Counted from the stretch's first letter, positions 34,656 to 39,065 are shown. The stretch: DNA of 64,000 bases from Desulfosoma sp. (GCA_037481875.1 JBBFKY010000008.1:62001-126000), one strand, 5' to 3'. Numbers and translations: made by a program. The notes: a model not told the origin generated them from the letters alone.

Positions 34656-35555
34656 ATGCAGAGGGTGGCCTTGTTTGAAACGCATTTTCCATCTCTCAAA
34701 CTCAAATCTCGAGGTAAAGTGCGCGACATCTACGACCTTGGAGATTCTCTGGTCATCGTCGCCACGGATCGTATTTCGGCCTTTGATGTAGTGATGCGCA
34801 CAGCCGTTCCGGACAAGGGGAGGATCCTCACGGCGCTCTCTCTCTTTTGGTTCGATTTTTTAAAGGACACAGTCGACAATCACCTCTTGCACACAGATGT
34901 CCACGCTTTTCCCGAATCGTGCGCACCCTATGCCGATACCCTTCGGGATCGCTCCATGTGGGTCAAAAAAGCCGAACCTCTTCCCGTAGAATGCATCGTT
35001 CGAGGGTACCTGGTAGGATCGGGTTGGAAAGATTACCAAAAAACAGGATCCGTGTGCGGCATTCCATTACCAAAAGGTCTTCGACTGGCCGAAAAATTGC
35101 CCGAACCCATTTTCACGCCGTCCACCAAGGCGGAGCAGGGTGCCCACGACGAAAATATTTCTTTTGATCAAATGACGGATCGCATCGGTAGGGATCTGGC
35201 CGCGCGTGTGCGTGACTTAAGCCTGAGTATCTACGACAAAGCCGCCGCATACGCTTTGAGCAAAGGCATCATTTTGGCCGATACCAAGTTGGAATTCGGT
35301 CTCGCCGACGGTCATCTGATCCTTATCGATGAAGTTCTGACGCCCGACTCCAGCCGGTTCTGGCCTGCGGATCGATACCGCATAGGCTCAAACCCTGAAA
35401 GTTTCGACAAGCAATATCTTCGGGATTACTTGGTGGACATTGGATGGACACCGGAACAGCCGGCGCCGGAACTGCCTGAAACGGTGGTGCAAAACACCCG
35501 AAGCCGTTACCTGGAAGCCTTGGAGCGACTGACAGGCCACGGCCTTAGCCTGTAA
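34656..35555 (+). CDS. purC: phosphoribosylaminoimidazole-succinocarboxamide synthase
   Basis: 299 residues with the SAICAR synthetase motifs: [14 protein letters not shown] (ATP loop), [39 protein letters not shown] and [21 protein letters not shown] six bases before the ATG at 34656 supports the start; ATG 34632 is an in-frame alternative. It adds aspartate to CAIR in purine synthesis. The longer, roughly 300-residue form matches the yeast ADE1-like subgroup. It is followed six bases later by the ParB-like gene, so the unusual trio downstream probably shares its transcript. Confidence 0.96.
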
Positions 35556-35561
35556 AAACTC

Positions 35562-36584
35562 ATGGAATCCAAGCGTCTCGTTTCCGCTCCCTTGTCTCAG
35601 ATAGACTGGGAAGACCACACCTTTGCCGTTCCATCTTATGTGCCGGACGAAAGGCTGGAGCAATCGCTCGAAACGTGTGGAGTCCTCACACCTCCGACTC
35701 TATGGGAAAAGACGCCACATCGTTTCGTTATCCTTGATGGGTTCAAAAGGCTTTTCTGGTTGCGGTGCCGGTGCGATCATGTGCAGGCTTTGGTCCATCC
35801 AACAGATGCCGAACACAGAAAGCTTCTGGCTTTTCGGCTTGAAACCAAGATGTTTTCCAGGCCTTTGAATCTGGCGGAAAAAGTTCATATTGTCGCCAAG
35901 TACGCCACACTGACCACACAAGAGGACCTGCAGCGAAGGATTTGCCCGACCTTGGGAATATCCGGTGCTGCCGATACCCTACCTCGATGGTGCTCCATCG
36001 CCACATGGCCTTCAAACCACCTTGCCGCTTTGGCTCAAGAGCTTATCGCCGACAAAACGGCTCTTCTGTTGACTTCCGTCTCTCATACGGATCGAGAGGC
36101 TTTTCTGGACCTCATACAAACTCTACGCTGCAGTGCCAGTCTTCAGGTGGAAATTCTTGAGCGGTGCAAGGATATTGCCCAACGAGACGGAGTGACATGG
36201 CAGACACTCCTTTCGGCTTCGGAAATCCAAAACATTGTGAAAGATCCTGAACGGAATCGCCGCGAAAAAACAGCCGCTGTCCGTGAACTCCTGAAGCAAT
36301 GGCGTTTTCCACGGTTATGGAAAAAAATGACCGCCATCCAAAATGCCATTGCCCAGATGAGCTTGCCTTCCAACATGTCCCTTGCGCCTCCTGCGTATCT
36401 GGAAGGCGAGGTATGGGAACTGAAGGTACACTTTCGTCACCCTGAGGCCCTGGCCGCCTCTGTTCAGAAAGCGGCGTCTCTTGCCCAATCCCAGGAATTC
36501 CAAAATCTTTTTCATCTTGTGGATCATCCCGTCGCCTTCCATGAAGACGAACCTACACCCTTTCTTTTCACCCGTCATCCATGA
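35562..36584 (+). CDS. ParB/Srx-like domain protein of unknown function
   Basis: 340 residues. Residues 10-100 resemble the N-terminal ParB nuclease/CTPase fold: PLSQID opening, PDERLEQSLETCGVLTPPTL, and ILDGFKRLFWLR in place of the ParB GxRRxxA box. The remainder is helical and unlike chromosomal ParB; no partner parA is nearby. It is followed by a spore-photoproduct-lyase-like gene whose coding region begins at its 3' end. The degenerate arginine box makes ParB-type DNA clamping doubtful. I treat it as a regulator or DNA-binding partner of the downstream enzyme, by inference. Confidence 0.65.
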   Translation: MESKRLVSAPLSQIDWEDHTFAVPSYVPDERLEQSLETCGVLTPPTLWEKTPHRFVILDGFKRLFWLRCRCDHVQALVHPTDAEHRKLLAFRLETKMFSRPLNLAEKVHIVAKYATLTTQEDLQRRICPTLGISGAADTLPRWCSIATWPSNHLAALAQELIADKTALLLTSVSHTDREAFLDLIQTLRCSASLQVEILERCKDIAQRDGVTWQTLLSASEIQNIVKDPERNRREKTAAVRELLKQWRFPRLWKKMTAIQNAIAQMSLPSNMSLAPPAYLEGEVWELKVHFRHPEALAASVQKAASLAQSQEFQNLFHLVDHPVAFHEDEPTPFLFTRHP

Positions 36585-36588
36585 AGGC

Positions 36589-37713
36589 ATGAAACCGACC
36601 GTTCGAAATCCCATCACCTCCCTTGTTGTGGAAAAGGCCGTCGCCTCCAGCCCCATCGTTCGTACCCTGCTGGAAAGATTGCCATCCATTCCTGTGGTCT
36701 ATGTGGACAAGGTGGCGGAGACCCAAGAAAAAATTCCGGGTCTTTTGGAGGTCGTTCATTACAAGGGACGATTTTGGCGAAACTGTCCGGGAACCAAAAT
36801 CTATGAATGTTGTGGATACCAGATCGTCCATATTGGCACGCAATGCAGCCTGGATTGCACCTATTGCATCTTGCAAGCCTACTTTGAAAGTCCCAATTTG
36901 AGGATCTTTGGAAACCTAGACGACCTGCTGGCAGAAGTGCAGGCAGTTACGGCGTCCTCACCCCAACGCTTGCTTCGAGCCGGCACCGGAGAATTCACAG
37001 ACTCCTTGCTCCTGGACCCTTGGACGGGTTTGTCCCAGCACTTGGTCCCCCTGTTTGGGCAAATCCCCAACGCCGTTCTAGAATTGAAAACGAAAACCGA
37101 TCATGTGTCACAACTCAAGGGCTTAGACCATCGAGGTCACACCCTGGTCTCGTGGTCCCTTAATGCCGAGGAGATCATCCGCACGCAAGAACCCCGCGCC
37201 GCTCCATTAAAGGCTCGGCTGCACGCCGCGCAACAATGCGCTCAATGGGGATACTTTTTAGGGTTTCACTTTGATCCCATGATTGATTATCCAGGATGGC
37301 GCGAAGGGTACCGACGCACTTTGCAGGCGCTTTTTGAAGCTGTTGACCCTGCCAAAGTGGTGTGGATCAGCTTAGGGGCTTTTCGGTTCATGCCCGATTT
37401 GAAAGCCATCATTGAACGGCATCATCCCAAAAGCCGCATAGTCACCGGAGAATTCATTCGCGGACTGGACGGTAAGATGCGCTATTTTCGAGACATCCGC
37501 CTAGAGCTTTACCAATGGATGGTTGAACAACTTCTGGGCTGGGATTCAAACCTGTGCGTCTACCTGTGCATGGAAGGACCTTGGATCTGGAAGCATGTCT
37601 TCGGACAAGAGCCTGCATGCAAAGGGGGACTTCCTGCCCTTTTGGACAAAGCCGTTAAGGAACGCATGGGGATCGAGCCAATGACGCACGGAGGAGACAA
37701 TGCCCTTGAATGA
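36589..37713 (+). CDS. spore photoproduct lyase family radical SAM protein
   Basis: About 374 residues. The radical SAM cysteines are C86, C90 and C93 in CSLDCTYC, preceded by the family stretch YECCGYQIVHIG and followed by LRAGTGEFTDSL and ELKTKTDHV. SplB repairs thymine dimers of spore DNA by direct reversal, and homologues occur in non-sporulating bacteria. No sporulation genes are in the window. Start: ATG 36589 is five bases after the upstream stop; ATG 36541, in frame, overlaps the upstream gene. Neither has a strong ribosome site. It overlaps the next gene by 14 bases. Confidence 0.83.
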   Translation: MKPTVRNPITSLVVEKAVASSPIVRTLLERLPSIPVVYVDKVAETQEKIPGLLEVVHYKGRFWRNCPGTKIYECCGYQIVHIGTQCSLDCTYCILQAYFESPNLRIFGNLDDLLAEVQAVTASSPQRLLRAGTGEFTDSLLLDPWTGLSQHLVPLFGQIPNAVLELKTKTDHVSQLKGLDHRGHTLVSWSLNAEEIIRTQEPRAAPLKARLHAAQQCAQWGYFLGFHFDPMIDYPGWREGYRRTLQALFEAVDPAKVVWISLGAFRFMPDLKAIIERHHPKSRIVTGEFIRGLDGKMRYFRDIRLELYQWMVEQLLGWDSNLCVYLCMEGPWIWKHVFGQEPACKGGLPALLDKAVKERMGIEPMTHGGDNALE

Positions 37714-38731
37714 AAACGATAAACGGGCGGTTCTTTCCTGGAATACCCATGTGTCCGGCAAGGTGCCCTTGGGGCTGCAGAAGACACGGGACACACGGAG
37801 TGCAGTGCTTCAAGCCTTTGGAGATGAACTTGTCGGGCTCACGCCGCACATCAGCCTCGAGACGACCTTTAGGGACACAAATGATTTACCGGCCTTTTTT
37901 GTTGGAAACGGCTGGATATGGCACGCCGCCCCGTCAGGAGCTGAATTCAGGCCGTTTCTTGAAACTCTGGCCCTTTTTCACGAGAGGTCGGCAGAGTCGT
38001 TTCCTTCATCGGAAAAGGAACAAAAGGGATCGTTTCAGCAAAGGAAACCCGATCTGTGGGATAGGCTTCAAGGACTGCAAAAGCCTACGGAGCTTTTGGT
38101 GTTTACGGCCTCTCAGTGCCCCCATTGCGCTCATATGCTTTTCGAACTAGGCCCTCTACCTTTCCTCTCCTCGTATCTGGTTATCCGTGTCCTGGACGCC
38201 TTGCTTTTCGCCGAAAAAGCTCAAGAGGCCGGCATTCGATCCGTTCCCACGATCCTTTACGGCGATCATTTTCGCTGGACGGGCCGTGTCGATCTGGCTC
38301 ATGTCCTGGAAGTGGTCTGCCGTGATGAACACACAGAACTCTCGGCTGCTGCCGCCGTTCGTCTGCTTAAAGAAGGCAAAGCCAAAGAGTTGAGCCGACT
38401 CATGTTGACTTCTTCAAAAATTTGGAAAGATTTCGCTTCTGTGCTCACCCATGCCGAATGGTCGGTACGCCTGGGCGCTCTGGTAGTCCTCGAAGAATTG
38501 GCCGAGAAGAACGTTACCAGGGCTCGAGCCTATCTTCCGCTTCTGTGGGAAAACATGGACACCTTTTCAGCGGCGGTTCAAGGCGACGTGATTTATGCCA
38601 CTGGAATGGTCGGGGACTCGACCTGGGCTGAGACAGTCCTTCAATGGGCCCAAAAACATGCCCAGGACGCAGAGCTTCAAGAAGTGGCCGAAGAAACAAT
38701 CAATATACTGAGAACAAAGCGCAGTCCGTGA
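37700..38731 (+). CDS. thioredoxin-fold protein with C-terminal HEAT-like repeats
   Basis: 343 residues. The N-terminal 115 residues look like a thioredoxin fold without a CxxC. A second fold follows with the redox pair C140-P-H-C143 in FTASQCPHCAH and the cis-proline loop RSVPTILYGDHF. This double arrangement recalls protein disulfide oxidoreductases and the AhpF N-terminal domain. From about residue 210 the chain is alpha-helical with HEAT-like repeats (WSVRLGALVVLEELAEKN). Cytoplasmic, no signal peptide. It overlaps the SPL-like gene, suggesting translational coupling. A thiol-supply role for that enzyme is possible but untested. Confidence 0.72.
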   Translation: MPLNENDKRAVLSWNTHVSGKVPLGLQKTRDTRSAVLQAFGDELVGLTPHISLETTFRDTNDLPAFFVGNGWIWHAAPSGAEFRPFLETLALFHERSAESFPSSEKEQKGSFQQRKPDLWDRLQGLQKPTELLVFTASQCPHCAHMLFELGPLPFLSSYLVIRVLDALLFAEKAQEAGIRSVPTILYGDHFRWTGRVDLAHVLEVVCRDEHTELSAAAAVRLLKEGKAKELSRLMLTSSKIWKDFASVLTHAEWSVRLGALVVLEELAEKNVTRARAYLPLLWENMDTFSAAVQGDVIYATGMVGDSTWAETVLQWAQKHAQDAELQEVAEETINILRTKRSP

Positions 38732-38872
38732 TCCGTGTCGGCACCGTACGGTGATATCCTTGCGAGATTCTGGAGAAAGCCGTTTCTCTCCATCGTTTGT
38801 CATGGGAAAGAACCTTGGAGGGGTGGCCCCATGTGTCCGTCCCATATTCTCCTCGCACCAGGCAGTTGCGGG

Positions 38873-38896
38873 GCGGACACACCGGTCCGCCCCTAC
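38873..38896. repeat. dispersed palindromic repeat, GGGGCGGACC family
   Basis: GGGGCGGACACACC followed by GGTCCGCCCC and then TACAAA: a near-perfect inverted repeat matching the elements at 15888-15908, 34388-34410 and 51294-51315. A half-element (GGCCCCATGTGTCCGTCCC) lies about 40 bases upstream. Confidence 0.7.
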
Positions 38897-39065
38897 AAAC
38901 CCTCGGACACAGGGATGAAGATGCCGAGACGCCCTTGGATAAAACTCCGAGACCTTTTGGGCCCGCTTCGAAAAATCAATCTTCTGCCTTAAAGCGGCTT
39001 TGGAGAGAAGGGCCCTTATCATTCAAGGCTATAAAGCAAGCTTCGTAAGAGATTCCTCATGGACG

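Follow-up and report, generated by a model that had tools for sequence, protein, structure and literature searches.

A ParB-like gene paired with a spore photoproduct lyase-fold radical SAM gene in Desulfobacterota and a second phylum

The conserved core of the locus described here is a vertically inherited, chromosomal pair of genes encoding a ParB-like protein and a radical SAM enzyme with the fold of spore photoproduct lyase (SPL), and not a trio completed by a thioredoxin-fold protein. We are nearly certain that the two genes work together as a real unit, and the conservation of the pair across two phyla points to an undescribed system of DNA-directed radical chemistry.

The window, i.e., the whole stretch of 64,000 nucleotides from Desulfosoma sp. 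that was analyzed (GCA_037481875.1 JBBFKY010000008.1:62001-126000), carries three head-to-tail ORFs, all on the + strand, as the initial annotation had proposed. They are listed here together with purC, immediately upstream, and with the GT2 glycosyltransferase gene of the same genome:

34467..35555, + strand: purC (SAICAR synthetase; Pfam 7e-76), with the true start probably near 34665
35562..36584, + strand: ParB-like gene (P0001), 340 aa
36589..37713, + strand: SPL-fold radical SAM gene (P0002), 374 aa from the ATG at 36589
37700..38731, + strand: double-thioredoxin-fold gene (P0003), 343 aa
G000:C12:86211-87017 (L272:5616-6530), on another contig and outside the window: GT2 gene (PF00535, 1.4e-32)

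We took the ATG at 36589 as the start of P0002; a longer ORF starting at 36481 runs into the upstream ParB-like gene. The end of purC at 35555 is separated from the ParB-like start by 6 nt, the ParB-like and SPL-like genes by 4 nt, and the SPL-like and thioredoxin-fold genes overlap (spacing of -14 nt). The four + strand genes form a single run, with the trio in one operon behind purC. A scan of the operon for promoters and terminators gave no signal beyond that of shuffled sequence. Just past the operon, at 38838-38900, lies an inverted-repeat-like stretch, GGGGCGGACACACCGGTCCGCCCC, which occurs once in the window and is possibly a dispersed genome element.

In neighborhood clustering, the order purC-ParB-SPL was found across much of the class to which the window belongs, and purC is also directly 5' of the ParB-like gene in Syntrophobacteria, Desulfobacterales, and further families (L313, L318). 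We rejected purC as a functional partner: it is a frequent and old neighbor, but it is missing outside some classes. An ORF of ~110 aa, lysine-rich and resembling the Rho N-terminal domain, adjoins GT2 or purC in several families (L105, L292-L297, L313); this ORF and the other neighbors of the trio were likewise rejected as partners, their recurrence being limited to few families. A phage or defense origin of the module was also rejected, with 0 matches to the models of known defense proteins in PADLOC, no plasmid match, and no PHROG match for either the ParB-like protein or the SPL-like protein of the window.

We counted the genes in 178 Desulfobacterota genomes that were at least 90% complete, leaving the weak SPL matches in G118 and G224 out of the counts. 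The SPL-like gene was present in 99 genomes and the ParB-like gene in 102; 98 had both, 5 had only one, and 75 had neither (Fisher test: P = 4e-44; the range over all pairs, GT2 included, was 3e-36 to 4e-44, with kinship among genomes ignored). In 65 genomes, from 25 families, the two genes are same-strand neighbors. In a comparison of other SPL-positive genomes, 33 of 34 carry a ParB-like gene with a longer match, including those in which the two are apart. The identities of the two proteins are correlated (r = 0.86), and co-occurrence within Desulfobacterota could be partly due to shared ancestry. In G068 the ParB-like, SPL-like, and GT2 genes are all missing, and three genomes of the same genus have all of them; G068 represents a joint loss of three genes.

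The pair recurs in a second phylum, to which a KSB1 MAG belongs, and there we counted SPL-like genes scoring > 330 bits in 82 genomes. Both genes were present in 48 of these and neither in 26; the pair was adjacent in 44 of the 48, with the ParB-like gene upstream in all 44 and most gaps between 11 and 60 nt. Because the neighborhood recurs both within Desulfobacterota (25 families) and outside it, in the second phylum, it exceeds what chance would produce, and both co-inheritance and fixed order are plain from the comparison of genomes.

In Desulfobacterota, the pair is usually joined by a GT2 glycosyltransferase belonging to a distinctive subfamily, and not by the thioredoxin/HEAT protein. 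It is present in 98 of the 178 genomes, 92 of which have all three genes (74 have none of the three), and a profile search returned one high-scoring copy in nearly every pair-bearing genome. The GT2 domain has DDGS and DxDD motifs, whose residues are invariant in the family alignment, and the nearest profile is that of polysaccharide glycosyltransferases such as TuaG, which it matches under the cut-off. GT2 and ParB-like genes are adjacent in 31 Desulfobacterota genomes from 13 families, and 27 genomes from 10 families have contiguous GT2, ParB, and SPL genes in that order, often overlapping; in Desulfobulbia it is GT2 and SPL that are adjacent, and elsewhere GT2 and ParB with SPL apart. In the window's own genome GT2 is near a dihydrouridine synthase gene and a LytB/IspH-UbiA fusion, the latter a single ORF of 583 aa that joins LytB/IspH to a UbiA-type prenyltransferase (L272:6547-8298; PF02401, PF01040). 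The second phylum includes four genomes with the full GT2-ParB-SPL order (G265, G267, G319, and G323), and GT2 is found there in 24 of 50 SPL-positive genomes and without the pair in 18. Since GT2 is uncoupled in the second phylum, the core is the pair, with GT2 a frequent but separable partner.

P0003 has a double thioredoxin fold like that of protein disulfide oxidoreductase (PDO) or the AhpF N-terminus (TIGR02187, 5e-9; AhpF, 8e-9; both under cut-off), but it differs from these in having only one CXXC, a CPHC formed by cysteines 140 and 143, and an added C-terminal extension. The double fold and the CPHC, which is retained in 23/23 homologues, agree with the initial annotation; Pfam HEAT families gave no match in P0003, and the word HEAT is descriptive only. 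Among 77 relatives, a P0003-type gene is present in 26, vs. 61 for the SPL-like and 60 for the ParB-like gene. It adjoins the pair in 8/8 genomes of the window's family and lies away from it in 18/18 of the other genomes that carry it. These neighborhood data speak against the thioredoxin/HEAT protein as a general third partner, so that of the proposed conserved trio the ParB-SPL pair stands, and the third gene, adjacent in a single family and missing from most pair-bearing genomes, does not. P0003 is a lineage-specific neighbor, a local add-on outside the conserved core, and is dispensable for the core function of the pair. The proposal that it serves as a dedicated thiol donor is unsupported, and such a donor is needless as a general feature.

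P0002 matches the Pfam SPL family (PF20903, E = 2.8e-31) and an SPL structure in PDB (4rh0, E = 1.4e-24). Its predicted structure (pLDDT 90.8) superimposes over the whole fold on SPL of Geobacillus thermodenitrificans (GtSPL; 4rh0/4fhc) with Z = 32.8 and 2.4 A over 310 residues at 24% identity, the next fold being at Z = 14.5. The radical SAM motif CX3CX2C is present, its cluster cysteines C86, C90, and C93 being conserved in 47/47 homologues, and the positions that match GtSPL Y96 and K174 do not vary either. To this extent P0002 resembles SPL (SplB) of G. thermodenitrificans and Bacillus subtilis, and its assignment to the SPL family holds for fold and cluster motif, but both canonical radical-relay residues are missing. 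In B. subtilis SPL the chain of hydrogen return and SAM regeneration is carried by the pair C141/Y99 (PMC3742179). The P0002 family differs at both sites in all 47 homologues: the position of the hydrogen donor (C140 in GtSPL, C141 in B. subtilis) is Glu in 47/47 (E135 in P0002), and that of the relay tyrosine (Y98 in GtSPL, Y99 in B. subtilis) is Ile in 40, Val in 4, and Phe in 3 (I94 in P0002). In the second phylum the two positions are Glu in 10/10 and Ile in 10/10 sequences. A canonical SPL identity was rejected on this account, and since the Cys140/Tyr98 relay is missing, SP-lyase chemistry is not to be assumed. P0002 should not be filed as SPL, because the curated NCBIfam equivalogs score far under their cut-offs (TIGR04070: 110.1 vs. 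400 bits; TIGR03886: 44.9 vs. 437.55 bits). From sequence and model, P0002 is best described as having the predicted fold of SPL and as not being a canonical SPL.

The family also differs from SPL in its ParB-like and GT2 partners and in four extra cysteines, C66, C74, C75, and C327, each near-invariant (45-46 of 47 homologues), which may supply a hydrogen atom or else be ligands of a further Fe-S cluster. The GtSPL residue aligned to C75 is S76, which a Cys replaces in structure 4rh0 (C140A/S76C). In Clostridium acetobutylicum SPL (CaSPL), C74 is described as the conserved cysteine, on another side of the pocket than C141 (PMC5368176). CaSPL as described there resembles the P0002 family in that its conserved cysteine is not of the C141 type, the C74/C75 loop of the P0002 family aligning near GtSPL S76, but it retains the conserved tyrosine that the P0002 family lacks; the cysteines of the two are putatively equivalent, the comparison being with the published description of CaSPL. 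A second, shorter-matching SPL paralogue (~190-210 bits) is present in addition to the main copy in the genomes concerned, at G127:C39, G125:C15, G260:C13, G175:C21, and G185:C29.

The ParB-like partner had been called degenerate, a description that its confident full-length model (AlphaFold, pLDDT 94.3) overturns. The model has three predicted domains:

residues 1 to ~81: ParB/Srx N-domain
residues ~87 to 206: central Noc/ParB-type helix-turn-helix (HTH) domain
residues ~250 to 325: C-terminal alpha/beta domain

A Pfam search with P0001 alone returned 0 matches, vs. 21/47 homologues matching ParB_N (best 7e-8), 26/47 matching Noc, and 19/47 matching parB_part (best 1.5e-12). The best solved structural matches to the model are a pNOB8-like ParB, PadC, CTP/CDP-bound ParB, Noc, and KorB, and sulfiredoxin and serine kinases match the N-domain alone. 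Residues 87-206, predicted to form the central HTH domain characteristic of the ParB/Noc superfamily, align to the Noc DNA-binding domain on its site (6y93; Z = 6.7, 2.6 A, 113 residues). The GxxR P-motif of the ParB-CTPase fold (G60/R63) is invariant in 48/48 sequences, and likewise in all 8 second-phylum sequences. By its predicted structure, P0001 is a full-length orphan ParB of normal layout. It thus resembles Noc, ParB, KorB, and the orphan ParB-CTPase-fold proteins in multi-domain layout, GxxR, and fold matches to CTP-bound ParB and Noc, but it differs in its surroundings, its neighbors being purC and SPL, and elsewhere GT2, and not the parA of canonical ParABS, and in the "EN..R" stretch, which is altered in most Desulfobacterota members and keeps D/EN in others. 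The fast change of the ParB-like sequence (median identity 29% vs. 54% for the SPL-like enzyme), in which a recognition helix is not evidently conserved, is a point against the DNA-directed mechanism considered below. A survey from 2025 (PMC12704722) found CTP, ATP, or GTP binding among orphan proteins of the ParB fold, with a nucleotide choice that is unpredictable from sequence; it used an R to A change in the GxxR motif as the non-binding control for such binders of diverse NTPs and mentions no radical SAM or photoproduct partner.

The reading that we favor, tentatively and at somewhat less than an even chance, is that the ParB-like protein is an NTP-gated adaptor that directs the SPL-fold radical SAM enzyme to DNA, where a lesion would be reversed or a base modified. 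The ParB-like protein would be a dimeric DNA-binding adaptor that binds CTP, ATP, or GTP, finds or clamps DNA, and delivers the enzyme there. The [4Fe-4S] cluster of the enzyme, together with SAM, would generate a 5'-deoxyadenosyl radical that takes a hydrogen from a pyrimidine or a linked base, and the lesion would be reversed or the base rearranged or modified. Because the Cys140/Tyr98 relay is absent, the return of hydrogen would need one of the family-specific cysteines (C66, C74, C75, or C327); these cysteines might instead hold an auxiliary Fe-S cluster, with an outcome different from simple lysis. DNA is the putative substrate by an argument from fold and partner, and we infer the NTP-gated adaptor role and the radical chemistry on a base; lesion reversal and base modification are indistinguishable by sequence. 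The hosts are mostly anaerobes of dark habitats, and UV lesions are for this reason unlikely as the main substrate.

The partnership with GT2, near-perfect in Desulfobacterota and loose in the second phylum, is unexplained by a pure repair function, and the two closest rivals both involve this enzyme. Under one, the SPL-fold enzyme modifies a base in DNA (or RNA) to which the ParB-like protein guides it, and GT2 then attaches a sugar to that base. Such hypermodification would fit the 92 of 178 genomes in which GT2 accompanies both partners, the contiguous GT2-ParB-SPL order in 27 genomes and in G265, G267, G319, and G323, the alternative adjacencies of GT2 to SPL in Desulfobulbia and to ParB with SPL apart, and the dihydrouridine synthase gene near GT2 in the window's genome, and the four extra cysteines leave scope for chemistry other than lysis. 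We nevertheless judge it rather unlikely, given that the second phylum does not couple GT2 to the pair (GT2 in 24 of 50 SPL-positive genomes, and in 18 with no pair), that its nearest profile, under cut-off, is of polysaccharide enzymes such as TuaG, and that a modified base is not known here. That same likeness to envelope glycosyltransferases, together with KorB among the structural matches of the ParB-like model, would suit the other rival, which makes the ParB-like protein an operon-linked transcription regulator and gives the enzyme a non-nucleic-acid target, e.g., an envelope precursor alongside GT2. This too we regard as unlikely: the ParB-like gene keeps with SPL or GT2 in very different neighborhoods and co-occurs with them when apart, which is more like a partner in a complex or pathway, and the fold of the enzyme is specifically that of SPL.

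Two further explanations are much weaker. An SPL-type repair enzyme with P0003 as its dedicated hydrogen or electron donor would account for the overlap of the two genes in the window, their adjacency in 8/8 genomes of the family, and the CPHC in 23/23 homologues, but we consider it very unlikely with the thioredoxin protein in 26 of 77 relatives, vs. 61 for the SPL-like enzyme, and never beside the pair outside one family. We give hardly any credence to the view that co-occurrence and adjacency are leftover ancestral gene order with no functional meaning. Vertical descent does predict the correlated identities (r = 0.86), and purC shows that a frequent neighbor need have no obvious functional link; but the surroundings are reshuffled among families while the pair or the GT2-containing trio holds its order in two phyla, and joint presence and absence persist with the genes far apart. 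Beyond the favored reading of a ParB-like adaptor and its SPL-fold enzyme, a fuller proposal, in which a ParB-fold NTP switch, an SPL-fold enzyme with an auxiliary Fe-S cluster on C66/C74/C75/C327, and a GT2 that finishes the product would make up a new chromosomal pathway of DNA/RNA modification or repair in a substantial fraction of Desulfobacterota and also in the second phylum, seems to us improbable as a whole.

We found no described system with a ParB-like and SPL-like pair, in keeping with the initial suggestion of an undescribed one. Searches for ParB with SPL, for SPL in sulfate reducers, and for radical SAM with ParB and a glycosyltransferase gave nothing relevant; they covered the open literature, which leaves most subscription journals outside, so that this is weak evidence. 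The parts come from known superfamilies, and it is their combination and the residue signature that are undescribed in the literature searched.

The pair ties an orphan ParB-fold protein to a catalytic partner and, if the favored reading is true, would make the ParB clamp or switch part of radical chemistry targeted to DNA. The enzymes form an SPL-fold subfamily that is widespread among non-model anaerobes and whose catalytic residues depart from those of the textbook enzyme. On a family match alone, such proteins would be named spore photoproduct lyases, a label that the residue data make untrustworthy. The module is compact and conserved, and lends itself to experimental tests.
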